Below are positions 1 through 41,610 of a DNA stretch of 41,646 nucleotides, piece after piece (the first letter of the stretch is position 1; every line of letters begins with the position of its first letter). The notes under the pieces were generated by a model. That model made no database searches. It was not told the origin of the DNA and worked only from the letters and a program-made list of their open reading frames with translations. A program made the translations under genes and the position numbers. This stretch comes from an uncultured Methylococcaceae bacterium (GTDB lineage Bacteria; Pseudomonadota; Gammaproteobacteria; Methylococcales; Methylococcaceae), in assembly GCA_903934875.1 (NCBI GenBank), contig CAIZPP010000041.1, forward strand, positions 1-41,646, written 5' to 3'.

Positions 1-65
1 TTAACCGAATAACCTGCGCTTACATACCCACTATCAAGTAACTCTTTGATGTTGAAAATGCGGTA
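1..65 (+). repeat. Truncated copy A of the 122-bp TACAGCG repeat (cut by window edge)
   Basis: The conserved right end of the repeat family is present, running from the inner hairpin remnant (TTAACCGAATAACC) to a slightly diverged terminal AAAATGCGGTA. The left half lies outside the window. It closely matches the right halves of the copies at 23476-23597 and 32461-32584. The nearest gene to its right (the MscS channel) ends here, so this copy lies behind a gene stop and not in front of a start. Confidence 0.85.
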
Positions 66-128
66 TAGTGATGTTGCCGGTTTGTGGCGTGCGGCGACTC
101 ATCGCAGCGTAAGCGTTCACCCCTAGCG

Positions 129-227
129 GAAATCCCCTCGCCCTACGGGAGAGGGTTAGGGATTTCAAAATCAAGGCTCTACAGATGCCCTCACCCCCAG
201 CCCCTCTCCCGCAGGGCGAGGGGGGTG
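129..227. repeat. GC-rich intergenic inverted repeats (CCCCTCTCCC type)
   Basis: Two hairpins lie side by side between the repeat at 1-65 and the MscS stop. One has arms GAAATCCC (129-136) and GGGATTTC (159-166). The other has arms CCCCTC (201-206) and GAGGGG (218-223) inside a GC-rich block. Related blocks occur near 2744-2780 and 6113-6149, so this is a dispersed intergenic repeat. The second hairpin could act as a bidirectional terminator for the leftward MscS gene, but it has no clear T-tract. Confidence 0.55.
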
Positions 228-283
228 AACGTTTACATCGCAGCCTGCCAAGCCCTGCGGCGACGAGTCGCCGCACTCCATAT

Positions 284-2680: not shown

Positions 2681-3140
2681 GTCTTATGCGGCAGGAAAGT
2701 GTTAAACGGCGGCTTGTCATCGCTTGATTATACGACACAACACGCCCTCATCCCCGGCCCTCATTCCCTGGGGAGAAGGGAAAAACCACGAAATTCACGC
2801 ACAATTCCTCCGCAAATCACCTTGCCAAGCTGGTGCTTGGCGTTCCTTCTGGGAGCGGCAAGCCCAAGCATCATCTTTTGCTGTGGCATACAATAAACTA
2901 ATTTTATCAATAAGCTATAAGTCAACAAAAATATTGCGGATTTTTATAAATTTTCTGTTTCTGTTTTTGGTTTTATGTTATAAATATAACCGTAGAAGAG
3001 GTACGTGTAGGCGGTCAGCATGGAAAGCCCCGTTCGACTTAAGGAGCGTTGTGGGATTTAATCGCCCGGACGGATTCCCCTTTTAAACGCCCGCCCACCC
3101 AGGCGGGAACCAGTCAATCCGTTTTTGGGGAGCATGTGTT
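2681..3140. other. Intergenic region with AT-rich island, repeat hairpin and leader hairpin
   Basis: This 460-base gap lies between the divergent MscS gene and the small gene at 3141. It holds a member of the GC-rich repeat (about 2744-2780, arms CCCT..CCC/GGG..AGGG), then a strongly AT-rich stretch (about 2890-2990, with TATAAATATAAC-like sequence) that probably carries the promoter for the downstream gene. A perfect hairpin CCCGCC/GGCGGG lies at 3090-3107 with a 6-base loop, within the probable 5' leader. No ORF here looks like a real gene. Confidence 0.5.
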
Positions 3141-3452
3141 ATGTCTGACTCTGAAATGTCTATCGGTAGCCAGAACCTGTTTGGCTTGCAATTCGACAAA
3201 GGGGATTCTCACAGATTGGGGCCAAGCGCGGAGGAAGCGCGAAAGCTGGAAGAATTTGTGGCGACGGGCTTAGGTAGCCGGGGCGGCCCCAATAAGCTGT
3301 CCAACAAGTTGAAGCGCAACCCTATGTCTTATATTTTGCGCAACGCCATTCCGCTGGAGCACTTTATAGCATCGGCCCTACGCAGCAGGGGCGGTCCCAA
3401 CAAAGTGACCAACAAGCTGAAAAGCCGCCTGAGTTCCTATTTGTACGATTAG
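3141..3452 (+). CDS. Small protein with duplicated SRGGPNK module, function unknown
   Basis: This 103-residue basic protein is not recognisable as a known family. It has two copies of a 30-residue module: residues 37-66 and 73-102. Aligned without gaps, 17 of 30 positions are identical, including SRGGPNK followed by a two-residue variable step and NKLK, and a closing S-Y pair. The first 36 residues are acidic and unlike the modules, so the layout resembles a leader plus two repeats. A good ribosome binding site (GGGGAG, 8 bases before the ATG) supports the start. There is no signal peptide or membrane helix. The gene is followed by a hairpin at 3460-3477. It could be a nucleic-acid-binding or regulatory small protein, or a modified-peptide precursor with two cores, but no modification enzyme is next to it. 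Confidence 0.72.
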   Translation: MSDSEMSIGSQNLFGLQFDKGDSHRLGPSAEEARKLEEFVATGLGSRGGPNKLSNKLKRNPMSYILRNAIPLEHFIASALRSRGGPNKVTNKLKSRLSSYLYD

Positions 3453-3459
3453 TGCCAAA

Positions 3460-3477
3460 GCCGCAGGGAAGCGGCTG
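3460..3477 (+). terminator. Hairpin after the small duplicated-module gene
   Basis: Perfect 6-bp stem AGCCGC/GCGGCT with a 6-base loop, starting 8 bases after the stop codon at 3452. No run of T follows, so intrinsic termination is uncertain. It may instead protect the mRNA end. Confidence 0.4.
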
Positions 3478-5218: not shown

Positions 5219-5282
5219 CTTGGGTCTAGCGAAAATTGCTGATAAAAAAACAATTTAAGCAGAAAAATACTCATGTTTCGAC

Positions 5283-7478: not shown

Positions 7479-7597
7479 TACAGCATTTTTAATATCGAAG
7501 AGTTACTTGTTAAGTTATATTATTTTGCAAAGCAATTAAATGATTGGTTGGCTCATATTTCTTAAAAGGCTATGTGAAGCATGGGCGTTTATTTATG
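7479..7597 (+). repeat. Repeat copy B1: D-type left half joined to a flanking repeat
   Basis: It starts TACAGCATTTTTAATATCG and follows the D subtype (copies at 25612 and 41488) as far as GCAAAGCAATT. It then switches to a different sequence containing GATTGGTTGG and TATGTGAAGCATGG. That second sequence also precedes the elements at 25945 and 32461. This looks like a chimera made by recombination or by insertion of B2 next to a broken D-type copy. Confidence 0.75.
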
Positions 7598-7719
7598 TAC
7601 GGCGTTTTCATCTTCATAATATACCTAAAAATGATATTCGATTAACTCTTTCGGTAAACCGAATAACCTGTGCTATAATAACCACTACCAAGTAACTCTT
7701 TGATGTTGAAAAGGCTGTA
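7598..7719 (+). repeat. Repeat copy B2 (C-type, 122 bp)
   Basis: A full C-type copy from TACGGCGTTTTC to GAAAAGGCTGTA, with conserved end on the right, ending 18 bases before the chain-length regulator ATG. The inner hairpin (TTCGATTAAC ... GTAAACCGAA) differs in sequence from other copies but still pairs. This copy contains TGCTATAAT, a perfect extended -10 box. Confidence 0.88.
7671..7679 (+). promoter_or_regulatory. Extended -10 promoter inside repeat B2, reading into the chain-length gene
   Basis: TGCTATAAT matches the extended -10 consensus (TGnTATAAT) exactly. No good -35 box is seen, which extended -10 promoters can tolerate. Transcription would start near 7686, giving a leader of about 50 bases before the ATG at 7738. 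Confidence 0.55.
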
Positions 7720-22363: not shown

Positions 22364-23425
22364 ATGGACCATGACCATTCCTATAAATTGTTATTTTCCC
22401 ATGCCGACATGGTGGCGGACCTGCTGCGCGGCTTTGTGCATGAGCCATGGGTGGGGGAAATCGATTTCGCCAGCTTGGAAAAGGTGGGCGGCAGTTATGT
22501 CGCAGACGACCTCCGCGAACGCGAGGACGACATCATCTGGCGGGTGCGCTGGGGTCAAGATTGGCTGTATGTCTATCTCTTGCTGGAATTCCAGTCCACC
22601 ATCGACCGCTACATGGCGGTGCGCATACTGGTCTACTTAGGGCTGCTCTATCAGGATTTGATTCGTACGGGCCAATTGGCTACCGATGGTCGGTTGCCCC
22701 CAGTGTTGCCCTTGGTCTTGTATAATGGTGTCAAAGCATGGGATGCGCCACGGGAGATTGTTGATCTGATCGTCGAAGCACCCCCAGGGTTGGAACGCTA
22801 CCGTCCCCAACTGTGCTATTTCCTGCTGGACGAGGGGCGGTTTTCCGACACCGAACTGGCCCCGTTGCAGAATCTGGCGGCGGCCTTGTTCCGACTGGAA
22901 GGCAGCCGTACGCCGCAAGACGTGGAGCGTGTGCTGGCGGCTTTGGTCGAATGGCTCAAGTCGCCGGAGCAGGCTTCGCTGCGGCGGGCATTCACGGTCT
23001 GGCTGAAGCGGGTGTTTCTGCCGGGCCGGGTGCCGGGCGTGGAATTTAGCAACCTGAACGATTTACAAGAGGTACAGAACATGTTGGCTGAACGGGTCAT
23101 CGAGTGGACAGAAGAATGGAAGCGGCAGGGCGTGGAGAAAGGCCGACAGGAAGGTAGGCAGGAAGGTCTGGAGGAAGGTTTACAAAAAGGTTTGCAGAAA
23201 GGTTTGCAGAAAGGTTTGCAGAAAGGTTTGCAGAAAGGTTTGCAGAAAGGTTTGCAGAAAGGCCAGGCCGCCTTGTTGCTGCGCCAGATGGAACTTCGCT
23301 TTGGGGCATTGAGTGAAAGTAGCCATGCAAAGGTGCAGTCGGCGGATACCGACACGCTGCTGCGGTGGGGGGAGCGGGTTTTGACGGTCATGGCGGAGGA
23401 AGAAGTATTCAAGGATATAGGATAG
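22364..23425 (+). CDS. Rpn-family recombination-promoting nuclease/putative transposase with tandem-repeat linker
   Basis: A 353-residue protein of the Rpn/transposase_31 group (PD-(D/E)XK fold). The N-terminus has HDHSYKLLFSHADMVADLL and the nuclease core segment VYLLLEFQSTIDRYMAVRIL, where Glu and Gln fit the ExQ motif. A linker of about residues 250-300 is made of EEG/QKG units. It includes seven LQKG repeats encoded by six identical 12-base units plus one degenerate unit (23177-23260). The C-terminus (QMELRFGALSE...) matches the DUF4351-type domain common in these proteins. Rpn proteins are linked to RecA-independent recombination and are often mobile or variable; the in-frame repeat can change in length without a frameshift. 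It is unrelated to polysaccharide synthesis. Confidence 0.82.
   Translation: MDHDHSYKLLFSHADMVADLLRGFVHEPWVGEIDFASLEKVGGSYVADDLREREDDIIWRVRWGQDWLYVYLLLEFQSTIDRYMAVRILVYLGLLYQDLIRTGQLATDGRLPPVLPLVLYNGVKAWDAPREIVDLIVEAPPGLERYRPQLCYFLLDEGRFSDTELAPLQNLAAALFRLEGSRTPQDVERVLAALVEWLKSPEQASLRRAFTVWLKRVFLPGRVPGVEFSNLNDLQEVQNMLAERVIEWTEEWKRQGVEKGRQEGRQEGLEEGLQKGLQKGLQKGLQKGLQKGLQKGLQKGQAALLLRQMELRFGALSESSHAKVQSADTDTLLRWGERVLTVMAEEEVFKDIG
23177..23260 (+). repeat. 12-bp tandem repeat (GGTTTGCAGAAA x6 plus one variant)
   Basis: Six perfect copies at 23189-23260 preceded by GGTTTACAAAAA at 23177-23188. In frame they encode LQKG units in the Rpn-family protein. Perfect identity between units suggests recent expansion. 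Confidence 0.95.
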
Positions 23426-23475: not shown

Positions 23476-23597
23476 TACAGCGTTTTCATCTTTAAAACAT
23501 AACTAAAAATGGATATTTGTTTAACCCTAAAGTTAACAGAATGACCTGCGCTTACATACCAACTATCAAGTAACTCTTTGATGTTGAAAACGCTGTA
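23476..23597 (+). repeat. Repeat copy C (C-type, 122 bp)
   Basis: A full copy with ends TACAGCGTTTTC and GAAAACGCTGTA and inner hairpin TTAAC-CCTAAA-GTTAA. Flanks show only TA duplicated, consistent with TA target duplication. The conserved end points right, 40 bases before the second amidotransferase ATG. Confidence 0.93.
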
Positions 23598-25611: not shown

Positions 25612-25735
25612 TACAGCGTTTTTAACATCGAAGAGTTACTTGTTGAGTTATATCACTTTGCAAAGCAATTCGCACAATGGGTGGTTTGATTGAGTTGTCC
25701 TTTATTATTTTTCTTTGTTAAGAAAAAACGCTGTA
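25612..25735 (-). repeat. Repeat copy D (D-type, 124 bp)
   Basis: A full D-type copy from TACAGCGTTTTTAACATCG to AAAAAACGCTGTA, with the conserved end on the left. It starts 18 bases after the amidotransferase stop. It carries TGATATAAC on the minus strand. Together with copy E in the opposite orientation it encloses a 209-base spacer. Confidence 0.93.
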
Positions 25736-25944
25736 CATAATTACAAATCCGGACTCCTAGCGATGTAGTGGCACATAGGCCGTCGTCTGACTAGCAACAA
25801 AAAATGTTGCCAGAACTATGGCTTACGCCTAGAGTGCCTTACCACGTTTAAGGAAGCCCATCAGTGGATTAGTATATGCAGTTAAATAATTGGTTGGCAT
25901 GAATTCATGATAAATGGTATGTGAAGCATGGGAAAGTTTTTTTG
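25736..25944. other. Spacer between inverted repeat copies D and E
   Basis: No ORF is seen. The first 35 bases share a block (CATAA..., then ACTCCT.GCG.TG) with the sequence after the copy ending at 41610. The last 60 bases (TAAATAATTGGTTGG ... TATGTGAAGCATGG) recur before the elements at 7598 and 32461. A hairpin GCAACA-AAAAA-TGTTGC lies at 25794-25810. The spacer itself is therefore made of repeat-associated sequence. Confidence 0.6.
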
Positions 25945-26066
25945 TACAGCATTTTTATCTTAACAAAGGATAATAATAAAAGACGCTCAATTAAACCCTC
26001 TTGTGTGTATGTGCCTTGCAAAATGATATAACCTGAAAGTAACTCTTTGATATTAAAAATGCTGTA
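25945..26066 (+). repeat. Repeat copy E (D-type, 122 bp) abutting the flippase start
   Basis: A full D-type copy from TACAGCATTTTTATC to AAAAATGCTGTA, inverted relative to copy D. Its last base is directly followed by the flippase ATG. It contains the extended -10 motif TGATATAAC at 26024-26032, reading toward the gene. Confidence 0.93.
26024..26032 (+). promoter_or_regulatory. Extended -10-like motif in repeat E, reading into the flippase
   Basis: TGATATAAC fits TGnTATAAT in eight of the nine positions and recurs in the D-type copies. Transcription would start near 26039, giving a leader of about 28 bases made entirely of repeat sequence and without a clear ribosome binding site. Confidence 0.4.
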
Positions 26067-27551
26067 ATGCATGAAATAAATCACAAAATGGCCAAAGGGG
26101 CCGCATGGATGGTAATTCTTAAGGTTGTCGAGCGCCTCATCGGACTTGTCAGTATGATGATTTTAGCTCGCCTTCTTATTCCGGCAGATTATGGTTTAAT
26201 GGCGATGGCTTGGTCTATCATCGCCGTGTTGGAGGTGATGGGAACATTCCGATTTGACCTTGCCATAATTCAAATTAAAAAGGTGGTTGATTATCATTAT
26301 GACACTGCTTGGACTTATACAATAATCGTTGCAATAGTTACCAGTTTAATTTTAGCATTACTAGCACTTCCAGCGGCGCATTTTTATAATGATCATCGAC
26401 TTGAATACATAATGTATGTTTTGGCTATCGGAACTTTTGCGCAAGGATTCGAAAACATAGGCGTTGTTGCCTTTCAAAAAGATATTAATCTAAAACTGGA
26501 TTTTATTTTTCAAGTAACGAAGAAAGTAGTATCATTTGCTGTCACTATCGGCATAGCTATTGTCTATAAAAATTATTGGGCTTTGGTTATTGGCACTGTA
26601 TCATCAAGGTTTGTAGGCGTAATTTTTAGTTATATGATACACCCTTACCGTCCAAAATTTTCATTGGCTGGTGGAAGCGATCTATTCCATTTTTCAAAAT
26701 GGATGCTTATCAACAATATTATGATATTTATCAACAACAGGTCAGTTGATTTTATTCTCGGCAAAATGGCGGGGCCGGGTGCTCTAGGCACATATTCCAT
26801 GGCTAATGAAATAGCCAACCTTCCCACTACAGAATTAGTCTGGCCCATTGGGCGGGCACTTTTTCCTGGCTATGTCAAATTACTTCATGACATGCCTGCT
26901 TTTCGTAAAAGTTTTTTAAATGCCTTAGGTCTAATTATCACATTCGCGCTGCCCGTAGGCATAGGAATAGCGGTATTGTCTGAACCATTGATTTCTATAT
27001 TACTCGGTCAAAAATGGGCCGGTGCGGTACGCGTAATGCAGATTCTTGCTGTCTATGGTGCCATACGCGCATGTTATACTAGCTTAGGTTCAGTATTTTT
27101 AGCACTTGGTCTTCCTAAATTAATATCCAAGCTGGCAATACTTAATATCTTTATTTTAATACCAATATTATTTTGGGCAGTGCCATTATGGGGGGCTGTA
27201 GGTGCTGCTTTGTCAATGTTGGCCGCACTTATAGTACAATTTAATTTTTATTATTTGGTTTTGATGAAAAAAATCAAACTAAATTTTTTACAAATTTTTG
27301 CTGTCGCATGGCGCCCATTATGTGCGACATTGATTATGGCATTAGTTGTGGACTTAACCAATAGAACTACAATGTTATACTACCATAATGTCTGGCAATT
27401 ACTTTCATGTGTTGCTACAGGTATCGTGGTATATGTGTTTTTTATTTTGTTCTTATGGAAATTATTTGGATCGCCAGCGGGGGCCGAGAGATTGATTTTA
27501 GACTTTGTAAAATCACGCATACAGCGTTTTCAACATCAAACAGTTACTTGA
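26067..27551 (+). CDS. Polysaccharide flippase (Wzx/MOP superfamily)
   Basis: Multi-spanning inner-membrane protein of 494 residues, with about 14 hydrophobic segments, that should flip lipid-linked repeat units across the inner membrane. The N-terminus (NHKMAKGAAWMVILKVVERLIGLVSMMILARLL) is typical of Wzx/lipopolysaccharide flippases. The gene is visibly AT-rich compared with the core EPS genes, which suggests separate acquisition. The first ATG directly follows repeat copy E and has no ribosome binding site; an in-frame ATG at 26088 is an alternative. The last residues (IQRFQHQTVT) and the stop come from an element end at 27520-27553, so the natural C-terminus has probably been replaced or extended. 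Confidence 0.9.
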   Translation: MHEINHKMAKGAAWMVILKVVERLIGLVSMMILARLLIPADYGLMAMAWSIIAVLEVMGTFRFDLAIIQIKKVVDYHYDTAWTYTIIVAIVTSLILALLALPAAHFYNDHRLEYIMYVLAIGTFAQGFENIGVVAFQKDINLKLDFIFQVTKKVVSFAVTIGIAIVYKNYWALVIGTVSSRFVGVIFSYMIHPYRPKFSLAGGSDLFHFSKWMLINNIMIFINNRSVDFILGKMAGPGALGTYSMANEIANLPTTELVWPIGRALFPGYVKLLHDMPAFRKSFLNALGLIITFALPVGIGIAVLSEPLISILLGQKWAGAVRVMQILAVYGAIRACYTSLGSVFLALGLPKLISKLAILNIFILIPILFWAVPLWGAVGAALSMLAALIVQFNFYYLVLMKKIKLNFLQIFAVAWRPLCATLIMALVVDLTNRTTMLYYHNVWQLLSCVATGIVVYVFFILFLWKLFGSPAGAERLILDFVKSRIQRFQHQTVT

Positions 27552-27553
27552 TG
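27520..27553 (-). repeat. Repeat fragment F: conserved end inside the flippase 3' end
   Basis: TACAGCGTTTTCAACATCAAA and the following GTTACTTGATGG match the conserved end (C-type, minus orientation); the rest of the element is missing. It provides the last ten codons and the TGA stop of the flippase gene. Confidence 0.85.
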
Positions 27554-28340: not shown

Positions 28341-29519
28341 ATGACTAACTCTTTTAAAGTATTAGCTTTAGCACAAAATTCATGGCATGGGCGCTGGCTA
28401 AACCGGCAGCAGTTATTGTCTAGGTTGGGGATTAAATATCCCATAGTATACTCCACTGGTGGTTGGTTCACGTGGGACAGAAACTCCACAGATTGGCATA
28501 CAGCGAGTCTATTCGGCGATTTTGCGTTAGAGGACAACGTTTGGATTGATAAGTCTCCAAAAGTTTTAATGCGCTATCCAAAAGTATCAGCCTATGATGA
28601 TGTGATTGTACGCTGGCAAGCTAGGCGCTGGACTTCCCGCTTAAATGCCCTAAGCGACGCGCCATTGGTCGCGCATGTATTTTATCCGTCTTTATTCCCT
28701 TATTTAAAATACATCCGCCCCCAAGTCCTTGTATACCATGCCTATGACCTGTTCCCTAAGACCCCAGGATGGAACAGCGAGATTGCTGGATATGAACGCA
28801 ATTTACTCGAAACTGCTGATTTGGTGGTGGCTTCTTCGCAATCAATAGCAGATGGCATGTTTTCGGTGGTTAACAGAGAGATTCGGGTACTCCCCAATGG
28901 CGCAGATATTCCAGCTTATGAGCACGCTTTGACAAGTGGATCGGAAGAACCCCAAGATTTGAAAAATATACCTCATCCCCGCATTGCTTACATGGGGAGT
29001 TTACAAGCGAAAGTTGATTTTGACTTGATTGCCGATTTGGCAACGCGGGAACCCGATTGGCATTTTATACTCATCGGCCATGTGGTCCCGGTGTTTTCGC
29101 CAGGAGGCCCCGAATGTGGAAGCCTGACTAGGTGCAGGAAGTTGCCAAATGTGCATGTTATCCAAGCAAAACCGCACAGCGAAATCCCGTACTATGCAAT
29201 CAATATGGACGTGAATCTCATGTGCTATCGCCTTGACGATACAACTTGGGTGAAATCCATTTATCCGCTTAAACTACATGAATATTTGGCAGCGGGGAAA
29301 CCTGTGGTCAGTTCAGATTTGGCGAGTGTGTCGCCATTCGCGTCCGTTGTCAGGATTGCAGGTGATTTGGAAGATTGGCACAAAGCCATCAGCGAAGCAC
29401 TGACAACGGGAGGAACCGGTAGCAGCGACACTAGGCAAGCGGTGGCCAGAGAAAATAGTTGGAATGCCAGAGTAAAGCAACTCGAAAACTGGCTGCTGGA
29501 AAAGCTACAGCGTTGTTAA
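28341..29519 (+). CDS. Glycosyltransferase (GT-B, TuaH-like)
   Basis: A 392-residue glycosyltransferase. The N-terminal half contains a Trp-rich segment (NSWHGRWLNRQQLLSRLG) and VYHAYDLFPKTPGW, and the C-terminal half has VLPNGAD, MGSLQAKVDFDL and KLHEYLAAGKPVVSSDL, the GT-B donor-site signature. This pattern resembles the TuaH-type sugar transferases. It ends with LQRC*, where the last codons and the TAA stop are supplied by an element end starting at 29506, so the original C-terminus may be lost. It lies 36 bases after the methyltransferase and belongs to the same cassette. Confidence 0.85.
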   Translation: MTNSFKVLALAQNSWHGRWLNRQQLLSRLGIKYPIVYSTGGWFTWDRNSTDWHTASLFGDFALEDNVWIDKSPKVLMRYPKVSAYDDVIVRWQARRWTSRLNALSDAPLVAHVFYPSLFPYLKYIRPQVLVYHAYDLFPKTPGWNSEIAGYERNLLETADLVVASSQSIADGMFSVVNREIRVLPNGADIPAYEHALTSGSEEPQDLKNIPHPRIAYMGSLQAKVDFDLIADLATREPDWHFILIGHVVPVFSPGGPECGSLTRCRKLPNVHVIQAKPHSEIPYYAINMDVNLMCYRLDDTTWVKSIYPLKLHEYLAAGKPVVSSDLASVSPFASVVRIAGDLEDWHKAISEALTTGGTGSSDTRQAVARENSWNARVKQLENWLLEKLQRC

Positions 29520-29530
29520 TATCGAAGAGT
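29506..29530 (-). repeat. Repeat fragment G0: conserved end in the glycosyltransferase 3' end
   Basis: TACAGCGTTGTTAATATCG and AAGAGT match the D-type conserved end, broken by the insertion of copy G1 at 29531. It contains the TAA stop of the glycosyltransferase. Confidence 0.8.
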
Positions 29531-29653
29531 TACAGCGTTTTCAACATCAAAGAGTTACTTGATAGCTGGAATGAAAGGGCAAGATATTCAGTTTACTTGA
29601 AACGTTAGCTGAATATCCTTTATTAGGGATATTTTAAAGATGAAAATGCTATA
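29531..29653 (-). repeat. Repeat copy G1 (C-type, 123 bp)
   Basis: A full copy with the conserved end on the left (TACAGCGTTTTCAACATC) and the other end GATGAAAATGCTATA. The inner hairpin is TTCAG/CTGAA based. It is inserted directly behind fragment G0. Confidence 0.88.
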
Positions 29654-29758
29654 CAAAAATACTTTCCAAGGACAACTCAATCAAACCACCCATTGTGTGA
29701 ATTGCTTTGCAAAATGATATAACTCAACAAGTAACTCTTTGATGTTAAAAATTGTGTA
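29654..29758 (+). repeat. Repeat copy G2 (D-type, left end decayed)
   Basis: Matches the D-type copy in reverse from AAGGACAACTCAATCAAACC to GATGTTAAAAATTGTGTA; the first 20 bases have decayed. TGATATAAC is retained. A 23-base block right after it (29763-29785) is identical to 36771-36793. The remaining stretch to the Fic stop (29786-29864) shows no gene. Confidence 0.85.
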
Positions 29759-30969: not shown

Positions 30970-32415
30970 TCAGTTAGGCGACTTTCTGGTAAAGGGCGGC
31001 TTGCAGTATATTTCTTCCAATAGCGCAGAATAGCGGGCGCCCAGCTTGTCCCAACTGTATTCACCAGTTGCTGCACAGAAGTTTTCGCCCTTGTCTGGAC
31101 TACATTCGTCCGATGCCGTTTTATCTTGGAAATATTGCCCATACCATGCGGCTATGGCTTGTTTGGCACTTTCTAAATCCTGCGGTGCGACCACGCGTCC
31201 CACGCGAGCCTGCCGAATAATATCAGCCGTTGCCCCTTCTTCCACAATTGCCAGAATTGGTTTTCCGGCCGCCATGTATTCGTAGGTTTTTGCCGCAACA
31301 GATAAGCGTTGAGTCCCCCCTAACAAGAGTAACATATCGGAATGCAGAACTTCTCTGAGCGCCTCCGTTCTAGGGACAAAGCCTATCACATCAGCTACTT
31401 CGCTTAACCCATGCTCGGCTATCACCTCCAACAGCGGCCTTTCTGCAACATGCTGGCAAGGGCCAACAAACCTTAAGTTAACTTTTTGCTTATCAATAGT
31501 GCCTTCCTCAATTAATTCCCTGACTGCCTTTAGCATAAGTGCTGGGGTCCGAGAAAAATCAAAACTTCCTACATAGCTGATGGTAAAGCGGTCTGATTTA
31601 ACAACTGGCGTTAATTCAGCAAATTCCTCCATGTCATATCCGTTTGTAATGGTGATCCATTTGTTCTCCGGCAGGTCAGGGTAAAGCTTGCGATACATCT
31701 CGGTCATAGCGGCCGTGACGCACACGATACGGTCAGCGCGCCGCATAACCGCCCGCTCTAGCCAATGATTGATACGGTCAGATATACCGCTGGTCAATAC
31801 AGAGGAGGTTTCATTCCACGCCCACGGATCACGAAAGTCAGCAACCCAAGCGATGCCATAAATGTTTTTCAATAATAACGCAACAAGGTGCGAGGTAAAG
31901 GGTGGGCCAGTGCTGATCAGGCATTGTGCCTTGTAATTGCGGCACGCTTTTAGAGACGAGACGACGGCAAAAGGGAGCCACCCTAAGAACTCATCGGGAG
32001 TATAGAGTAAAGACAGTATGGTCTTTTTTAACCAGCTAGGGGCAGATTCGCAAGACCCTGGCCCTTCATTCCCTGGGACGCCTAAGCTTGCCGCCAGATT
32101 TTCGGTTGTTTTGCCACCGGAAAACCAAGCTATTATCCTTTTCATCCACAAATACACATGGCGAATGTTTGGTATGCAGCGGGTACGGATGACAATGGCC
32201 GAATCTGAACCTGCGATACCTGAATTATTTATGAGATCGTAGTATCGTTCCTTTACAGTCATGGCGATTGGATGCCATCCAGAAAGGGCTAGCTGCCTGG
32301 CAAGATAGACGGGTCGCACTGCCCCCACATTTGCATCTGGCGGCCATGAATAAGCCAAAATGATTACTGACTTACTCTCATTACTATTATATTCTTTGAT
32401 ATTCTTGGTTGGCAT
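30970..32415 (-). CDS. GT4-family glycosyltransferase
   Basis: A 481-residue glycosyltransferase. The N-terminus has the characteristic YSWPPDANVGAVRPVYLARQ acceptor loop, and the C-terminal half has SYVGSFDFSRTP and AAKTYEYMAAGKPILAI donor-site segments. The middle (about 90-230) carries a longer insert than most GT4 enzymes, including WVADFRDPWAWNE, typical of the related group in EPS loci. It is transcribed leftward, and its 5' region contains the TATGTGAAGCATGG block and repeat copy H about 45 bases upstream. The 3' end lies 112 bases before the Fic start. Base composition is intermediate between the flippase cassette and the core genes. Confidence 0.87.
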   Translation of the reverse strand: MPTKNIKEYNSNESKSVIILAYSWPPDANVGAVRPVYLARQLALSGWHPIAMTVKERYYDLINNSGIAGSDSAIVIRTRCIPNIRHVYLWMKRIIAWFSGGKTTENLAASLGVPGNEGPGSCESAPSWLKKTILSLLYTPDEFLGWLPFAVVSSLKACRNYKAQCLISTGPPFTSHLVALLLKNIYGIAWVADFRDPWAWNETSSVLTSGISDRINHWLERAVMRRADRIVCVTAAMTEMYRKLYPDLPENKWITITNGYDMEEFAELTPVVKSDRFTISYVGSFDFSRTPALMLKAVRELIEEGTIDKQKVNLRFVGPCQHVAERPLLEVIAEHGLSEVADVIGFVPRTEALREVLHSDMLLLLGGTQRLSVAAKTYEYMAAGKPILAIVEEGATADIIRQARVGRVVAPQDLESAKQAIAAWYGQYFQDKTASDECSPDKGENFCAATGEYSWDKLGARYSALLEEIYCKPPFTRKSPN

Positions 32416-32460
32416 ACATTTCTAAATAATTGGTATGTGAAGCATGGATATATCTTTATG

Positions 32461-32584
32461 TACAGCGTTTTCATATTAAAAATATACCTAAACAGACATT
32501 CAGTTAACCCTTCAGGTTAACCGAATAACCTGCGCTACCATCATACCCACTACCAAGTAACTCTTTGATGTTGAAAACGCTGTA
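32461..32584 (+). repeat. Repeat copy H (C-type, 124 bp)
   Basis: The clearest full copy: ends TACAGCGTTTTC and GAAAACGCTGTA, with a central hairpin GTTAACC-CTTCA-GGTTAAC extended by TTC/GAA pairs. It lies between the GT4 start and the stop of the beta-helix gene (19 bases away). Confidence 0.95.
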
Positions 32585-32603: not shown

Positions 32604-34271
32604 TTAGTGGACCACTTGCAGATTTTTAGGTGGGGCAAAGGCTCCGGGTCCGGCGACCCCTGTGCTTATGCTCGCAATGGCATCTATGTTCGCGCCCAAA
32701 TCCAACCCGTCAGTCCCTGCGCTCTTGTAAGGGCTGGTGGTGGATAGGTGGTAATCCCCTCCGGAATAGTTCACAAAGCCAACCGCTGTCACATTGGCCG
32801 GGAAGTAGTTATTGGCAGGGTATGTCGAACTCATGTTAGGCCCAATGATGGCATTGTTAGTAAATAGCCAATTGGTAAAGTAATATTTCAAACAACCGTT
32901 GCCTTCCCCCTGATTGGACCCAAAAAAACCATATGCTCCATGAGTAACTAGATTATTAGAAAAAACAAACTGGTCATTCGCTGGAGTCCCATCCATAGAA
33001 CCAAGCTCAGTGGAGCCTGTCGTGGTTGTGATAAAGGCGGTATTGTGATCTATGGTTAAATTGTTTACCCCAGACAATATTTGAAATATTTTCCCTCCCC
33101 CGCCAAGCCCGGCAACCCCAATGATATTATTTTTTATCAGAATGCGATAGGTATTCTGGCTTGTGTTGGGAGAATCGTGGCCCATGATATTAATTCCACT
33201 ACTAACATTTGTCAGCGTATTGAGTTGAAATGTAATATCCTGTACTACGGACCAAGGGGCATTGCCATTTTGATTACGCGGCGTAAACAACACAGAATAG
33301 CCATCTTGGGCACTTGGCCAATTGTTTTGCAAAAGGTTACCCTGGATTAACACACGCTGGGCGTTTTTCAATTCTATCAGGTTCTTTACTTGCCAAGCAG
33401 GTGTGACAGACATCCAAGCAATCTGTTTGGCAATGTAATTGCCTGTGATTGTTATATCGGACGGCACAGAATTGGCAATCGCAGGATCGGCACCACCAAA
33501 CAGGATATTTTCGCTTGATGCCTCTAGGTAATTGTTGCTTATTTTAAACGGACCGGGGCTGTTGTAAGCCCATACCGCTTGCGTATCGCTGCCCACTTGC
33601 ATAAAACCTGAAACATACGAGTCAATAACCGCCACATTGATGCCGTCCATTTCGACACCACGACGGCCTCCTAAGGTCGGGTCGCCGTGGATATAGCAGC
33701 GGTCGATGGTGATATTGCTAGGCAATGCGGCTGCCGATGTTTCGCCATTGCCCACGGCAAAAAGAGTATACATAAACACACCCTGCACGGGGGCCATTTC
33801 TATGCCAATAAAGCGGTAATGGTTCGCACCCGACGCCGCCTGAATGCCTATTCCGCTATTCCCATAGGGAAAAACTAGCTTTGCCATGTTTGGCGCGTCC
33901 GTGGGTACCGCGCGGTTTCCCGGAGACGGAAGGCTGGAATAATTGCTTGACACGACGTATATCCAGCCGCTTCCTTTGGTTTTAACGGGCAACGTGAAAT
34001 TTCCCGTAAACGTCGCCCCCGCCTGCAATACGATGACATCACCTAAATTGGCACCATTAAGAGCAGCCTGGAAATTTCCCCCGGCGTTTACGTTGATGGT
34101 ATTGCCGCCAGCGGGCAGCGAATAGGTGGTGTCAATGAATGCCTGTGGCAAGGCCGGCAAGGACGTCGCGCTACTGCCTAGGCTTGGCCACAAGGAAAAT
34201 AATGCCATGCCCAATAAACAGGCGGTTGCCATTTTGCCAGCGTAAATTCTTGGGCGCTGATATGAACACAT
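32604..34271 (-). CDS. Secreted right-handed parallel beta-helix protein (first paralogue)
   Basis: A 555-residue secreted protein. The ATG at 34271 has an AGGAGA site seven bases upstream; the frame extends 10 codons further but that part overlaps a leader hairpin. The signal peptide (MATACLLGMALFSLWPSLGSS) is clear. The mature part has regularly spaced short strands with Asn/Gly turns typical of pectate-lyase-like beta-helices, for example NFQAALNGANLGDVIVLQAG near the start. It is clearly paralogous to the protein at 39877-41481, with similar segments throughout, by eye over half identical. Beta-helix proteins in polysaccharide loci include lyases and mannuronan epimerases, but no catalytic signature is recognised here. 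It lies 100 bases after the LamG protein gene, likely the same operon. Confidence 0.8.
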   Translation of the reverse strand: MCSYQRPRIYAGKMATACLLGMALFSLWPSLGSSATSLPALPQAFIDTTYSLPAGGNTINVNAGGNFQAALNGANLGDVIVLQAGATFTGNFTLPVKTKGSGWIYVVSSNYSSLPSPGNRAVPTDAPNMAKLVFPYGNSGIGIQAASGANHYRFIGIEMAPVQGVFMYTLFAVGNGETSAAALPSNITIDRCYIHGDPTLGGRRGVEMDGINVAVIDSYVSGFMQVGSDTQAVWAYNSPGPFKISNNYLEASSENILFGGADPAIANSVPSDITITGNYIAKQIAWMSVTPAWQVKNLIELKNAQRVLIQGNLLQNNWPSAQDGYSVLFTPRNQNGNAPWSVVQDITFQLNTLTNVSSGINIMGHDSPNTSQNTYRILIKNNIIGVAGLGGGGKIFQILSGVNNLTIDHNTAFITTTTGSTELGSMDGTPANDQFVFSNNLVTHGAYGFFGSNQGEGNGCLKYYFTNWLFTNNAIIGPNMSSTYPANNYFPANVTAVGFVNYSGGDYHLSTTSPYKSAGTDGLDLGANIDAIASISTGVAGPGAFAPPKNLQVVH

Positions 34272-34292
34272 TGTGACTCTCCTAAGTGGGCG

Positions 34293-34309
34293 GAAATCCA
34301 TAGGATTTC
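34293..34309. promoter_or_regulatory. Leader hairpin before the beta-helix gene
   Basis: Perfect 7-bp stem GAAATCC/GGATTTC with a 3-base loop, ending about 10 bases before the ribosome binding site of the gene starting at 34271. It may affect translation or processing between the two genes. Confidence 0.4.
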
Positions 34310-34372: not shown

Positions 34373-36529
34373 TCAATAACCAGAGCCATATACCGACACC
34401 GCCCCGCCAGTTGCAATACCACCTGTTGTCCAATTGTTCGGTAAGCTAGTTAGTGTACTGGATGCGCTGGACTCTGTCACGCTTGTGCCCGTGCCCGGTT
34501 GTCCGCGCAGATTCAACGTCCCTCCCGTACCGAGTATCACTATCCAATAGGATTGGCCTGCGGACAGACTCAGTGGATACAGTGATGCCGAATTCCAGGC
34601 GCCCGCCTGCAACGCAGTCAATATGCCGACAGATCCCCACAGCGACCTAGGGTGCCCGTCGGTCGTGCTGGTATAAATGGCCACTTGCAGCTTCGTCGCG
34701 GACGAACCTGCATCCAAATAGACCTGAATGTCGGCCAATGTTTGGGACGTTGCAGGCGTGATCTTGAACGCCTGTGCCGTGCCTGCCAGGAGGGATGCCG
34801 GTGTGGATTCGACGTTCGTGTCGCCTGCGACGAACTTCAGCGGATTCGACACACTGATTGCGCTGGTCGAATCGCTGATGATTTGATCGTTAGTCAATGC
34901 CCGATTGTATATCCGCACTTCGTCGATATAGCCTTGGAAATACCCGCCCCACAGAGAGTTGCCACCAATCTGCAACACGCCGGACGAGGTGTTGACTGCG
35001 CCGGTTTGAGGCAGCGTGCTAACTAACACGCCATTGACGTAGAGGTACTGGTATTGCCCGTCGTAGGTGGTCGCCAGATGCGTCCACTGGTTAAGCGGAA
35101 TCTGCATGTTGCCACCAATCGCCACTTCGCTTCCGGCCAAAATGGCGGACATCGGCTGGTTGGCGCCGTTGTTTGCCGCCAGCAGGTACGCTTCGCCATA
35201 CGAGCCGGCATTAGGTTGTTGTTTCATGACGACGGTACTCGTGCCGCTTACCCACGTGGTCGGATACACCCAGGCCTCCAGCGTCATAGCGGAGGACGAG
35301 GGCAATGATGCGCTATTTTGTACCGTGACCCAGTTAGGGGAACTGCTTGTGCCGCTAAATTTCAACGCATTGCCAAAGCGGCCTCCTACGACTCGAACGG
35401 CTCCGGTGATAGTGCCATAATTGCCAGAGCCTGAAGCATCCTCTGCATAAGACCCATTGACCTCATCAAAGCCATAGGCTGCCACTAGCCCGCTAGTATT
35501 GCCAGCGGCGTTGCCCGTGGTGGCCGTGGTGGCCGTGGTGGCCGTGGTGGCCGTGGTGGCCGTGGTGGCCGTGGTGGCCGTGGTGCCGGTGCTGTCGCCT
35601 GCGGTGCTGGTTACGGAAGGCGTGGTGACGGTAATCTGATTCGATAGAGTATTGGTGACGCTACCGCCAGGACCGGTCACTGTGAGAGATACGTTATATG
35701 TGCCTACACTCCCATACGATTTGATCGCAGTCGGCACGGTGCTTGTGGTTCCAGAGTTGGTGGTGCCGTCGCCGAAGCTCCACTGCCAGCTAGTAATGGC
35801 TCCTGTCGTCGCGGGAGTGAAGGTCACGGCGAGCGGGGCGTTGCCGCTAGCCTGGCTAGGCGTGAAGTTCGCTGTCGGGGCAGCCTGTGCATTTACAGAT
35901 GCTTCATTGGAGTATCTGCTTTGAAATGCCCGCGTCGTATCATAGGCACTGACTGCGAAATAGTAGGCGGTGCCGGTTTGTAATCCCGTTAATGTGTAGC
36001 TGGTGCTGTTTCCCACGTCAACGCTTGCTGTGTAATTGCCGCTGCTCGTTCCGTAATAGACGATGTAGCCGCCCACATTGGCTGCCGTACTGGCTGCCCA
36101 AGCGAGTGTCACAGTGGATGAAGAGGCATTGCCCGCTGCCGATGGCGGCAAAGAATTTATTGACCCTGCTAAGTAATTTTGCCATGTATTGGTGACAAAC
36201 GGGGCAAGTAGGATGCCTGCAATGGCAGCGACAACGACTGCATAATAACCTATTCGGTTGTTACGCCTACCCTGTCCTGCAGCGGGAAGCCATCGGCGCA
36301 AGGACAAAAATCCCGACCAAGAAAGCCCCATCAGCGCGGCTATGAGCAGGACAGAAGGTATCCAATCAGGCATGGCATAGAGCCATAAAAATGCATCGCT
36401 TGCTTCCAACGAATCTAGCGCCACCGCTTGTCCCGAGACAAATATGAGGCTTGCGAATAATGCTAGGCCGAAAGCCTGTCTGGCCCTGTCAGACAAACCA
36501 TTGGTGGAGTTCATGATATGAATGTTCAT
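34373..36529 (-). CDS. Membrane-anchored FN3-PKD-LamG surface protein
   Basis: A 718-residue protein. The preferred ATG at 36529 follows GAGG by 6 bases; another ATG at 36541 lies three bases from repeat copy I. A signal-like segment (about 20-37, GQAVA) is followed by two membrane helices (about 58-76 and 94-114) separated by an Arg-rich loop, so the C-terminal part should face the periplasm or outside. Domains in order: FN3 (about 128-214, with YIVYYGTSSGNY), PKD (about 218-303, with WSFGDGTTNSG), a TATT repeat linker (318-338), LamG/concanavalin (about 349-556, with WVYPTTW and YDGQYQYLYVNG), and a C-terminal jelly-roll-like domain (563-718). It is probably a carbohydrate-binding surface or matrix protein. 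A dialanine motif SAAG lies just after the last helix. Confidence 0.82.
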   Translation of the reverse strand: MNIHIMNSTNGLSDRARQAFGLALFASLIFVSGQAVALDSLEASDAFLWLYAMPDWIPSVLLIAALMGLSWSGFLSLRRWLPAAGQGRRNNRIGYYAVVVAAIAGILLAPFVTNTWQNYLAGSINSLPPSAAGNASSSTVTLAWAASTAANVGGYIVYYGTSSGNYTASVDVGNSTSYTLTGLQTGTAYYFAVSAYDTTRAFQSRYSNEASVNAQAAPTANFTPSQASGNAPLAVTFTPATTGAITSWQWSFGDGTTNSGTTSTVPTAIKSYGSVGTYNVSLTVTGPGGSVTNTLSNQITVTTPSVTSTAGDSTGTTATTATTATTATTATTATTATTGNAAGNTSGLVAAYGFDEVNGSYAEDASGSGNYGTITGAVRVVGGRFGNALKFSGTSSSPNWVTVQNSASLPSSSAMTLEAWVYPTTWVSGTSTVVMKQQPNAGSYGEAYLLAANNGANQPMSAILAGSEVAIGGNMQIPLNQWTHLATTYDGQYQYLYVNGVLVSTLPQTGAVNTSSGVLQIGGNSLWGGYFQGYIDEVRIYNRALTNDQIISDSTSAISVSNPLKFVAGDTNVESTPASLLAGTAQAFKITPATSQTLADIQVYLDAGSSATKLQVAIYTSTTDGHPRSLWGSVGILTALQAGAWNSASLYPLSLSAGQSYWIVILGTGGTLNLRGQPGTGTSVTESSASSTLTSLPNNWTTGGIATGGAVSVYGSGY
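35516..35578 (-). repeat. 9-bp tandem repeat encoding Ala-Thr-Thr units
   Basis: Seven near-identical 9-base units (GTGGCCGTG type on the plus strand) encode an Ala-Thr-Thr linker between the PKD and LamG domains. The in-frame period allows linker length change without frameshift. Confidence 0.9.
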
Positions 36530-36543
36530 ATTAAACCTCATTA

Positions 36544-36666
36544 TACAGCGTTTTCGACATCAATCGGTTACTTAATAAGGCTTATGGTTATTGCTAGACA
36601 TTTTTTTCAACCAAAGGTTGTTTGAATATTCATTTTTAGTTGGTTTTTAAAGATGAAAACGCTGTA
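36544..36666 (-). repeat. Repeat copy I (C-type, 123 bp)
   Basis: A full copy in minus orientation with ends TACAGCGTTTTC and GATGAAAACGCTGTA; the central hairpin is CAACC-AAA-GGTTG, different in sequence from other copies but still pairing. The conserved end faces the LamG gene start, two bases from its first ATG. Confidence 0.92.
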
Positions 36667-37082
36667 CATAAAGATATTACCATGTAATTCTTTTGATACC
36701 TATGGCTAAAAGCAGGATAACCTACTCCCATGTCACTCTAAAAATGGCTAATTGGTAGGACGGGTAGAGGCATGGATGCCGAAACCCATCATTATAAGTG
36801 CTCCAATGTTGTGATGGGTTTCGCTTATGCTCTACCCATCCTTCTGCAGTTTTGTTCAATTTTGTAGTGATAAGGGAATAGAGTACATACAATGCAAGCA
36901 TTGTGCCAATAACAAAAAAACAGCAGATGGGTTGATATCGATGGCTATTAGGAAGAAAGATAAAGATAGAAACTGGATGGTTTGTTACTGTGAGGCGACA
37001 CCCGGTAAAACCACCGCATTAGTTTAGCTGAAAATCGAATATTAACATCACAAGCATTTGATTATAAATAACTTTAACATAA
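36667..37082. other. Intergenic region with hairpin and possible fragment ORF
   Basis: A 416-base stretch between repeat copies I and K. A perfect 11-bp inverted repeat GAAACCCATCA/TGATGGGTTTC lies at 36781-36791 and 36812-36822. The first arm is part of a 23-base block (36771-36793) that also occurs at 29763-29785. An ORF at 36827-37027 has some Cys residues (CKHC, CYC) but no ribosome binding site and no recognised family, so it is not called as a gene. Confidence 0.5.
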
Positions 37083-37204
37083 TGACAGCGTTGCCTGCCC
37101 ACGACGGGCACCATTGCAAATTGCGATTTAATTATCAAAACGCATTGCAACTTGAATTGCGGGTAAGCCTTATCAAGTAAGCGATTGATGTTGAAAACGC
37201 TGTA
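37083..37204 (+). repeat. Repeat copy K (diverged, about 122 bp)
   Basis: The conserved right end is intact (AAGCGATTGATGTTGAAAACG, then CTGTA), sharing AAGCCTTAT and GATTGATGT details with copy I. The left end is TGACAGCG and the inner left half is unlike either subtype. It lies one base beyond the LapD stop codon. Confidence 0.75.
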
Positions 37205-37205
37205 A

Positions 37206-39152: not shown

Positions 39153-39167
39153 ACAAAGAATCCTTAT

Positions 39168-39902
39168 TTATTTGCCATTCAGAGATTGCATTCTATGAAG
39201 TAGCTCTTGCCATAGATTAATGCGTTCAGGGGCTCCCAAGAATTGCCCAATTCCCCTCTGTTTTGCTAACCACAAACCTTCTGCGTTAAAGCTATAAACA
39301 GGCATTAGGTCGGTTCGCTGTGTGGCCGGTTGTATGGCATGGATCAAGTTATCCAGTACCAATGGAACAGTTCCAGGCGGGTTAGTGTAGGTGAGTACCA
39401 TATGTGCTTGGTTCAGCGTTAACGACTTCACATAGGTTAAACGGAGATGCTCTTCCGGTACATTAAGCACCCGTAAGGTGAAATATTTGGCGATGGAAAA
39501 ATCTTCACAATCTCCACCGCTGCTTGCTAACGTTTCAATTGGGGTTGCCCAATAGTCGCTTTTCCCCCAATGGGTCATATCATCGACAAATTGTAGTTCG
39601 TTGATAAAAGCATTTACCAATTCCAATTTTTCATGTTCGCTCTTGCCTTGATTGGAATCGATCAATTTCTGCCATGTCTTTACTCTATCTACGGCTTTAT
39701 CTCCGTATTTACTTCTAATATCTGTCAAAGTTGAGTCTGGTATTTTAAAATCGTTTGTGACAGATTGGGCTATTTGTATTATCAATAATAATAGTATGGC
39801 AAGAAAGACAATTCTACGCCATTCATATAGAACGATGATCAAAGCCAGCAATCCACGGTGAATAAGGGCTGGCGGTCTAATTCCCTCCTGTTGCTGAGCC
39901 AC
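39168..39902 (-). CDS. lapG: LapG-like transglutaminase-fold cysteine protease
   Basis: A 244-residue periplasmic protease anchored by one N-terminal helix (about 31-46). In the Lap system it cleaves a surface adhesin after a dialanine motif when LapD releases it at low c-di-GMP. The catalytic triad is visible: Cys132 in SSGGDCEDF, His167 in LNQAHMVL and Asp184 in LVLDN. The acidic residues around Cys132 fit the calcium-binding site described for this family. It is transcribed with lapD (15-base gap) and overlaps the 3' end of the beta-helix gene by 26 bases, so the three appear to form one operon. No LapA-type adhesin with large repeats is present in the window. Confidence 0.92.
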   Translation of the reverse strand: MAQQQEGIRPPALIHRGLLALIIVLYEWRRIVFLAILLLLIIQIAQSVTNDFKIPDSTLTDIRSKYGDKAVDRVKTWQKLIDSNQGKSEHEKLELVNAFINELQFVDDMTHWGKSDYWATPIETLASSGGDCEDFSIAKYFTLRVLNVPEEHLRLTYVKSLTLNQAHMVLTYTNPPGTVPLVLDNLIHAIQPATQRTDLMPVYSFNAEGLWLAKQRGIGQFLGAPERINLWQELLHRMQSLNGK

Positions 39903-41481
39903 TCATGGCCACTCCGAAGCCTGCTTTTGCGATGGCGCTTATGTCCGCACCCAGTTCATTTCCATCCGTCCCGGCGCGTTTGTACGGGCTGGAAACGGAT
40001 AGGTGGTAATCCCCTCCGGCATAATTCACAAAACCGACTGCCGAGGTGTCGGTAGGAAAATAGTTGCCTAAGGGGTATCCATTGGTCTTTGCCCCAATAA
40101 TTGCATTGTTTGAAAATATCCAGTTGGTGTAGTACTTGGAGAGTGTGGCATTTCCCTCTCCGGTTCCGCTTCCAGTAAACCCGTAGGCTCCTCTGGTAAC
40201 TATATTATTGGTGATATCGACTTGGTCCGATGGTGGATTGCTTTCAGTAAAGGCGAATGTCCCTGTGCCGAAGCCCGTATTGTGGTCTATCGTGAGGTCA
40301 GTCACTCCACCTAGAATTTGCAAGATTCGCCCTGCACCGCCGCCCAGCCCGGTAACCGCTATGAGATTATTTTGTATCAAAAAACGGTGGCTATTCTGGC
40401 TTGGGTGTTCGCTATCGTGGCCCGCAAGGTTAAACCCTTGGGCAAGGTTTACCAGCATATTGAAGCGAAACGTGATGTCTTGCACTATCGACCAAGGGGC
40501 TGTGCCGCCTTGATTGCGGGGAGTGACTAGTATGGAGAAACCGTTCTGGGCTTTTGGCCAGTTGTTCTCGAAACGATTTCCATCAACTAATACGCGTTGG
40601 GCGTTCTTAAATTCAAGCAGGTTTTTCACGCTCCAAGCCGACCCCATCCATGCAAGCGGTTTAAAAAAGTGATTGTGCCTGATTTCGATATCAGACGGGA
40701 CGAGGTCGGCAATCTTCGGGTCGGCACCGCCAAACATGACGTTTTCGCCGGCCGCCTCGAGATAATTGTTGGCTATTTTGAACGGGCCAGGACTGTTATA
40801 GGCCCACAATGCCTGGGTGTCCGCGCCCACTTCCTTGAAGTCCGAAACATAAGAGTCGACAACCGCCACGGATATGCCATCCATGGCGACGCCCCGGCGG
40901 CCTCCGACGGTCGGATCGCCGTGAATGTAGCAACGGTCAAACGTAATATCATGGGGGAGCGCTGCTGGCGATGTTTCCTTATTGCCAATAGTGGCAAGTG
41001 CATAGACGAATTTGCCGGTGACCGGTGTGACTTCTATGCCGATAAAACGATAGTGGTGCGCCTTAGTTGCTGTTTGTATTGCGCTTCCGTTGCCTGCCCC
41101 AACAACGATTTTTGGCATATTGGCCGCGTCAGCAGGTTTAACCCGGTTTCCGGGGGCTGGAAGCTTGGCATAATTGCCAGAGCGGATATAAATCCAACCC
41201 GATCCGGCAGTTTTGTCAGGCAACGTAAACGGACCCGTGAACGTCGCTCCCGCCTGCAAAACGATGGTGTCGCCCGGGCTTGCGTTGTTGAGGGCCGACT
41301 GGAAGTCACCCCCGGCGTTGACGGTGATGGTATTGCCCGCAGGTGGCAAATAGGTGGTGTCAATCAATGCCTGTGGCAAGTTTGGCAGGGCCGCGGCACC
41401 ATTGCTAGGGCTTGACCAAAAATAAAGCGATGCCATTCCCGTCAGGCAGGCGATAGCGGCATGGATACTCTGAATTTTCAT
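39877..41481 (-). CDS. Secreted right-handed parallel beta-helix protein (second paralogue)
   Basis: A 534-residue secreted protein, clearly paralogous to the one at 32604-34271 along its whole length (shared segments such as DTTY, then NTI/VNAGG and GDTIVLQAGATFTGPFTLP). The signal peptide (about residues 6-30) is clear. The mature part shows the regular short strands and Asn-rich turns of a right-handed beta-helix, with motifs such as DRCYIHGDPTVGGRRG and YNSPGPFKIANNYLEA. The function may be polysaccharide binding, cleavage or epimerisation; no catalytic residues can be assigned. It overlaps lapG by 26 bases at its 3' end. The ATG is 6 bases from repeat copy L and has no ribosome binding site, so expression may depend on the repeat. 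Confidence 0.8.
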   Translation of the reverse strand: MKIQSIHAAIACLTGMASLYFWSSPSNGAAALPNLPQALIDTTYLPPAGNTITVNAGGDFQSALNNASPGDTIVLQAGATFTGPFTLPDKTAGSGWIYIRSGNYAKLPAPGNRVKPADAANMPKIVVGAGNGSAIQTATKAHHYRFIGIEVTPVTGKFVYALATIGNKETSPAALPHDITFDRCYIHGDPTVGGRRGVAMDGISVAVVDSYVSDFKEVGADTQALWAYNSPGPFKIANNYLEAAGENVMFGGADPKIADLVPSDIEIRHNHFFKPLAWMGSAWSVKNLLEFKNAQRVLVDGNRFENNWPKAQNGFSILVTPRNQGGTAPWSIVQDITFRFNMLVNLAQGFNLAGHDSEHPSQNSHRFLIQNNLIAVTGLGGGAGRILQILGGVTDLTIDHNTGFGTGTFAFTESNPPSDQVDITNNIVTRGAYGFTGSGTGEGNATLSKYYTNWIFSNNAIIGAKTNGYPLGNYFPTDTSAVGFVNYAGGDYHLSVSSPYKRAGTDGNELGADISAIAKAGFGVAMSGSATGGN

Positions 41482-41487
41482 ATGACT

Positions 41488-41610
41488 TACAGCGTTTTTA
41501 ATATCGAAAAGTTACTTGTTTGTTTATATCATTTTGCAAAGTGGTTCATACACAGGATGGTTTGATTGAGTGTCCTTTATTATTTTTCCTTGTTAAGAAA
41601 AAACGCTGTA
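41488..41610 (-). repeat. Repeat copy L (D-type, 123 bp)
   Basis: A full D-type copy from TACAGCGTTTTTAATATCG to AAAAAACGCTGTA, with the conserved end on the left, facing the beta-helix gene start six bases away. It carries the extended -10 motif on the minus strand. The 26 bases after it partly match the sequence after copy D. Confidence 0.93.
41523..41531 (-). promoter_or_regulatory. Extended -10-like motif in repeat L, reading into the beta-helix gene
   Basis: On the minus strand this reads TGATATAAA, close to the TGnTATAAT consensus. Transcription would start near 41516, about 35 bases before the ATG at 41481. Confidence 0.4.

Follow-up and report, generated by a model that had tools for sequence, protein, structure and literature searches.

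Miniature repeats in a methanotroph genome are probably relatives of an IS630-family insertion sequence that move as paired or single ends

The 41,646-nucleotide stretch analysed here (the window) is the entire contig C41 of the 344-contig, 5,412,172-base assembly of an uncultured Methylococcaceae bacterium (G000), and it carries copies of a repeat of ~122 bp with the ends TACAGCG/CGCTGTA. Two types of this repeat unit, C and D, mostly form the opposite termini of a single longer element, which measures 451–461 bp when full. The repeats are probably non-autonomous relatives of IS630/Tc1-mariner insertion sequences (ISs) that move as paired ends or as single ends. Neither the ~122-bp units nor the 451–461-bp elements contain a transposase gene; they are short, have the inverted ends TACAGCRTTTT and share these ends with an IS630-family IS, which identifies them as miniature inverted-repeat transposable elements (MITEs). 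The original prediction, made from the sequence of the window, was right about the MITE nature, the TA target duplication and the IS630-like transposase; it missed the longer C–D element, and its suggestion of selection on structure was not supported.

Each unit has a strongly conserved outer end, the A-end (~31 bp, starting TACAGCGTTTT), and an inner inverted copy of it, B; the sequence past B is called the tail. Genomes G000 to G006 were placed in one genus of lake methanotrophs, in which G006 is Candidatus Methylumidiphilus alinenensis AMbin10 and G001 is an uncultured Methylococcaceae metagenome-assembled genome; the window genome probably represents a further species of this genus. Units were characterized in a sample of 1.08 Mb of the window genome (20%, window included), taken from contigs picked for known copies, where a search at ≤8 mismatches returned 274 A-ends (control, 0), some of which are B-ends of variant units. 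The A-end is flanked by unrelated sequence, stacked and nested copies excepted, whereas past B the C units run into CATAAAGATATTTCCATGCTTCACATACC and the D units into CATAAATGCAAATCGGGACTCCT. The earlier claim that only TA is shared at both borders thus holds for the A-end and fails at the other end for part of the copies: among 60 unpaired units with a recognized inner end, 24 extend into a subtype-specific tail and 36 do not. The 245 A-ends lying away from the stretch edges comprise 108 with a convergent partner, 24 tailed singles, 36 tail-less singles and 77 others; of the 36 tail-less rows, three have their B in common with a stacked neighbour, and the B of at least one (C54:37731) is spurious. 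The two predicted subtypes are real, and a third, F (36544 and 37204 in the window), was found together with further variants.

A copy or fragment lies at each of the 14 window positions that had been predicted, with corrections at 1, 29506 and 29654. The copies are as follows:

1–65, minus strand: C unit fragment, the last 65 bp of the unit, with its A-end at 65; the contig starts within the unit
7479–7719, unstranded: A–A element of 241 bp, typed D and C, with a truncated D end (A-end 7479), C tail and C unit 7598–7719 (A-end 7719)
23476–23597, minus strand: single C unit of 122 bp, tail-less, with TA at both ends
25612–26066, unstranded: full-length A–A element of 455 bp, typed D and D, with D unit 25612–25735, centre 25736–25944 and second unit 25945–26066
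27520–27553, plus strand: A-end remnant of ~34 bp, resembling the F type, which overlaps the 3′ end of the open reading frame (ORF) 26067–27551
29506–29758, unstranded: A–A element with a stacked end, consisting of A-end 29506–29530 (25 bp), C unit 29531–29653, a 14-bp tail and D fragment 29668–29758 (A-end 29758)
32385–32584, minus strand: C unit 32461–32584 with ~76 bp of C tail (32385–32460)
36544–37204, unstranded: A–A element of 661 bp, both ends of F type, 36544–36666 (plus) and 37084–37204 (minus)
41488–41646, plus strand: D unit 41488–41610, then D tail up to the contig end

The copy at 29506 is thus an A-end stacked on the unit at 29531, and that at 29654 is a 14-bp tail followed by a 91-bp D fragment with its outer end at 29758. 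The unit at 25945–26066 is a hybrid of a D-type body and a C-type tail, the tail matching the IS leader described below. Both contig ends fall inside repeat copies; the repeats break assemblies. The stacked A-end at 29506–29530 also provides the final codons and the stop of a glycosyltransferase-like ORF (28341–29519).

The pairing of the two subtypes is far from random. Among 44 convergent neighbours standing 140–1000 bp apart, 28 combine C with D, compared with 16.0 expected, and none of 10,000 shuffles reached this number; pairs below 140 bp were left out, since A-ends found at ≤8 mismatches include B-ends of variant units. Neighbouring A-ends <700 bp apart were convergent in 54 of 69 cases and divergent in 2 of 64. 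Thirteen of these 54 convergent pairs are single variant units (120–133 bp, both ends matching), which leaves 41. Eight pairs are full, at 451–461 bp: six are C+D, one is C+F and one, the window element at 25612–26066, is typed D+D. The full pairs whose sequence was read through run from an A-end through the D unit, D tail, centre, reversed C tail and reversed second unit to the other A-end, and shorter pairs (241 bp, 253 bp and others) look like internal deletions of this full element. The tails of C and D units differ because the two units usually sit at either end of a single longer element. The alternative that the C tail is a separate repeat invaded by the MITE was rejected in view of the C–D pairing and the homology of this tail to the IS leader. 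The D tail, which matches neither the IS gene nor the IS right end, may be a separate repeat into which the MITE inserts.

A transposase with the same terminal repeat, as predicted, was found in relatives, with an A-end at its 3′ side and a C unit at its 5′ side. The 317-aa ORF, reached through DDE_3 genes of the relatives, scores 176.7 bits for IS630 (cut-off 100) and 1.7e-29 for DDE_3, and a second member is 73% identical. The stop codon of the gene sits within an A-end. On the other side, a C unit (124 bp) and a leader (129 bp) precede the transposase ATG in G006:C113; the same arrangement is seen in G006:C100, although the contig start truncates the unit there, and in C289, which has the C unit and the leader but has lost the 5′ part of the gene. 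The outer flanks differ at the two complete unit-bearing left ends (C113 and C289). The C half is homologous to the IS: compared with four C tails of the window species, the leader gave local scores of 37, 50, 38 and 49 (shuffled maxima 29, 25, 29 and 30), above 300 of 300 shuffles in all four copies. A search of G000 with the transposase protein returned no match at E values up to 1e-5. In G005 the same search found four transposase stubs at contig ends, and the gene there is largely unassembled. G000 has one other DDE_3 ORF (36.7 bits), which is not matched by the 317-aa transposase and has no adjoining A-end. The family in the window genome is therefore probably an orphan with no detectable transposase of its own, although an unassembled copy is possible.

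Direct evidence for mobility comes from empty sites and a nested copy. (i) The site of a 302-bp pair (C91:35985–36286) is empty in G006, where the flanks are contiguous and the TA is conserved. (ii) The site of a 121-bp unit (C192:20845–20965) is empty in G006, where the flanks align across the junction with 8 bp of gaps nearby and the TA is not conserved. (iii) The site of a 122-bp unit (C232:34414–34535) is likewise empty in G006, with 2 bp of gaps near the junction and the TA not conserved; the G006 alignment starts 78 bp upstream of the junction, and further upstream G006 carries a different sequence of ~160 bp; the alignments of these flanks with G001, G003 and G004 contain small insertions. 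(iv) A 279-bp pair is nested in a C unit, and its removal in silico rejoins the two halves at one TA; the rejoined unit gave 66 matches to uninterrupted C units, the best with a 1-nt gap at the junction. The predicted TA target duplication is borne out by the nested copy and the three filled/empty comparisons; of the three sites, one retains the TA in the relative. The two single-unit sites come from a flank test in which four of nine prepared units were compared (C192, C232, C45 and C123); C45 aligned only with gaps of at least some 45 bp, and C123 had no match. Judged from these alignments, single ~122-bp units appear to be mobile too. Initial comparisons of 20-kb stretches with relatives did not yield a clean empty site, owing to divergent flanks or broken synteny. 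A second candidate nested site, for the element at 29506–29758 (59 bp, 80%), was set aside, as its left part could be chance, and two further spanning matches (C188:30588–31102 and C41:29531–29653) were element-to-element matches and were not counted.

Ends also accumulate on one another. Twenty stacked A-ends stand 19–99 bp outside another A-end in the same direction. Eight of them have a far A-end, beyond which the rest of the outer copy is missing in seven; for seven more, the far end is B only, and the remainder of the outer copy is present in none, although in these seven the element may extend further. The simplest account would be that even a very short outer A-end can pair with the distal end of the inner element in a subsequent transposition.

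These observations suggest the following scheme. The IS would bear an A-end on both sides, the left one belonging to a whole C unit (outer A-end, hairpin and inner B) followed by the gene leader, and the right one containing the transposase stop codon. In the window species, the full non-autonomous form would be the 451–461-bp element that ends in a C unit on one side and, in most cases, in a D unit on the opposite side; internal deletions would turn it into the shorter A–A forms. An end unit bounded by A outside and B inside could then move alone as a 122-bp MITE into TA, duplicating it, and any two convergent A-ends could be mobilized together, producing hybrid and stacked copies. We infer from the sequences that the transposase of the relatives did the moving and that it would choose between B and the far A-end. 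A stronger form of this scheme is plausible but tentative: each end of the non-autonomous form, as well as the left end of the IS, would be a complete two-ended unit, so that one transposase would move the IS, a pair or a single end; outer A-ends of 19–32 bp would be captured, ends would stack and swap, and recombined end modules would make new elements.

Several observations weigh against movement as paired or single ends of an IS630 relative. Empty sites are few: 49 units in five contigs, compared with the corresponding stretches of relatives, gave a single one (C91), and the flank test gave two from four units. As many as 77 of the 245 A-ends lack both a partner and a recognized B, many of them being other subtypes (~115–135 bp) or copies interrupted by another repeat. 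A-ends without B (119 of 245) outnumber B-ends without A (15 of 142), an asymmetry that is overstated because the B patterns are narrower. In G006:C155, the leader occurs without a C unit and borders a foreign flank at a single TA, the state expected if the C unit had left precisely, and no C unit precedes the intact transposase ORF in C181. Few tailed elements have lost an end unit in the way suggested by C155: B is missing in front of 5 of 39 C tails and of 2 of 17 D tails. Neither the D body nor the D tail matches the IS gene or right end better than shuffles do; the D half is linked to the IS by the A-end, that is to say, the terminal repeat, alone. This argues against a simple deletion origin and lowers our confidence in the proposed descent; an IS variant or another module may be the source of the D half. 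Three of four D-tail slices gave weak matches to the IS leader, which probably reflect the slices reaching the C-tail side. None of the transposase genes found has a D unit next to it, and no contig was found to contain an IS with both of its ends; the IS structure is pieced together from several broken copies. In principle, the other DDE_3 ORF of G000 could act on the repeats.

The C155 copy also bears on the origin of the IS left end. It is possible, although we are doubtful, that the C unit originated as a MITE, landed next to an earlier IS left end and took over as the new end, that C155 retains the older form, and that the C–D pairs are MITE composites around a captured centre. The occurrence of TACATAAAA next to a different flank with a single TA in C155 is consistent with this, as is the absence of a counterpart of the D half in the IS. 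The two ends of an IS630 element should resemble each other, whereas CATAAAAATCGC is unlike the right-hand repeat; furthermore, the differing outer flanks at C113 and C289 argue that the unit travelled with the IS, and precise loss of the unit accounts for C155 equally well. It is quite unlikely that the repeats form a separate 122-bp MITE family, split into two sequence subtypes and without a tie to longer elements: this would explain the tail-less single units with TA at both ends (the 36 rows, with the reservations given above) and the two of these sites that are empty in the relative, but the subtype-specific tails and the excess of C–D pairs contradict it as a complete account, and in IS copies the left end consists of a C unit. 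Spread through larger duplicated segments or homologous recombination, rather than by transposition, is very improbable. The original prediction took alignment of the ends beyond TACAGCG as a sign of such segments, and homology does extend past B, on this one side, in many copies; yet single 122-bp units look mobile, the tails connect each end to its counterpart in the same element, the flanks of the A-end are unrelated except in stacked and nested copies, and the empty sites rejoin without the element.

It is also unlikely that the repeats are retained as regulatory RNA or terminator hairpins, processed in the manner of Correia/NEMIS with RNase III, and that their mobility lies in the past. 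Whole units fold more stably than dinucleotide shuffles (mean z −4.27 for C and −2.56 for D), and the central hairpin of the C units (mean z −3.3) is what such a function would call for, as is the location of the copies, with 41 of 274 insertion points inside ORFs that cover 84% of the sequence (crude ORF set). The intergenic bias, however, also follows from the purging of harmful insertions, many copies are truncated, and hairpin covariation does not exceed the control. One alignment comprised 60 of 78 C units and another took in 32 of 46 D units. In the C alignment, the 11-bp central stem had a covariation score of 0.178, compared with 0.176 when shuffled, and seven pairs changed on both sides, compared with 4.9 (35 of 500 shuffles). 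The compensatory pairing from which selection on structure had been proposed is therefore not distinguishable from the shuffled control, although the hairpin itself is real in C units. Covariation is confined to the terminal repeat, chiefly to position 7 (G–C vs A–T), at which C units with TA at both ends carry G/C in 25 cases, A/T in 13 and other combinations in nine, as expected if both ends must fit the same protein or if each can be copied from the other.

The family is abundant and narrowly distributed. The whole genome and its relatives were searched, as the original prediction had proposed: the 5.41-Mb genome contains 629 A-ends (TACAGCGTTTTYAAYATCRAAGAGTTACTTG, ≤3 mismatches), compared with none for the reversed pattern, and the A-end is present in five of the seven genomes of the genus and in none of 144 outside it (151 genomes searched). 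The window holds 11 A-ends, compared with 4.84 expected from the genome average (Poisson P 0.011). Elements cover 3.0% of the 1.08-Mb sample, a biased figure rather than a genome-wide estimate, since the stretches were chosen for copies. Many single units lie within a few bases of an ORF on one side or both. The repeats had no match in Rfam, no exact match in viral contigs and no match in a plasmid search. A second, unrelated MITE family with the ends CTGATGTTACGCA, mostly ~128 or 138 bp long (e.g., G000:C173:12346–12473), was observed as 41 convergent units in the 1.08 Mb, six of them with identical 8-bp flanks; 12 of the 41 lie ≤130 bp from an A-end, some within D units.

Other features of the window include a YhgA-like putative transposase ORF (Transposase_31; 22364–23425, plus strand) with an in-frame 12-nt repeat encoding GLQK (23121–23264), akin to sequences repeated in relatives. 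Two related ORFs on the minus strand (32604–34301 and 39877–41481) share stretches of 72–80% DNA identity and have no Pfam match, and a 9-nt tandem repeat GCCGTGGTG (35505–35594) lies inside ORF 34373–36541 (minus strand).

The findings suggest a route from an IS to a very abundant MITE family, in which modular ends depart alone. The genus forms a natural series, from G001 (an apparently intact transposase ORF and three A-ends) to G000 (629 A-ends, transposase undetected), that allows MITE birth and orphaning to be tested.

Listings of the open-access literature returned no description of this repeat family or of MITEs in these methanotrophs. The papers cited here were covered in part, and what is said of them refers to the parts covered. 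In these, the repeat family is not described for Thiomargarita (PMC4853749), and the paper titled after the genus has nothing on transposons, its sole “repeat” match concerning something else (PMC8397446). The RUP element of Streptococcus pneumoniae, a ~107-bp MITE that inserts at TA and has ends in common with IS630-Spn1, is similar in being a MITE with TA insertion and ends shared with an IS630-family IS; by its description it differs in its host and in that its IS resides in the same species, whereas here none was found in the window genome, and ends that are themselves mobile units are not described for it in the part covered (PMC2229807). Correia/NEMIS repeats of Neisseria are likewise small, TA-flanked and hairpin-forming, with more than one size class (~107 and 155 bp), but their longer class is the shorter one plus a 50-bp internal sequence, whereas C and D are mostly opposite ends (PMC2229807). 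ERIC/IRU elements, with 711 copies in Photorhabdus luminescens, are comparably abundant and differ, as described, in a 7-bp terminal repeat and in their hosts (PMC2229807, PMC10969869). In the Tn3-derived TIME/TIME-COMP system, two miniature elements around a piece of DNA move as a composite with 5-bp duplications; a pair of miniature elements is mobile together there as here, but the family is Tn3, the flanking elements stand in either orientation, and the part covered does not present a TIME as an end unit of its parent element (PMC4133298). ISY100, a complete autonomous IS of the IS630/Tc1-mariner group, transposes in vitro by cut and paste into TA with TA duplication; the same mechanism is expected for the repeats described here, and nested end units do not figure in the part of that paper covered (PMC2170065). 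Thus, IS630/Tc1-mariner transposition into TA, IS630-linked MITEs and composites of miniature elements are already known. REP/RAYT elements depend on a tyrosine (Y1) transposase of the RAYT group and produce no target duplication, and the TA duplication at the present repeats argues against such a relationship. What looks new is the modular architecture, in which the end of a transposon is itself a mobile unit.

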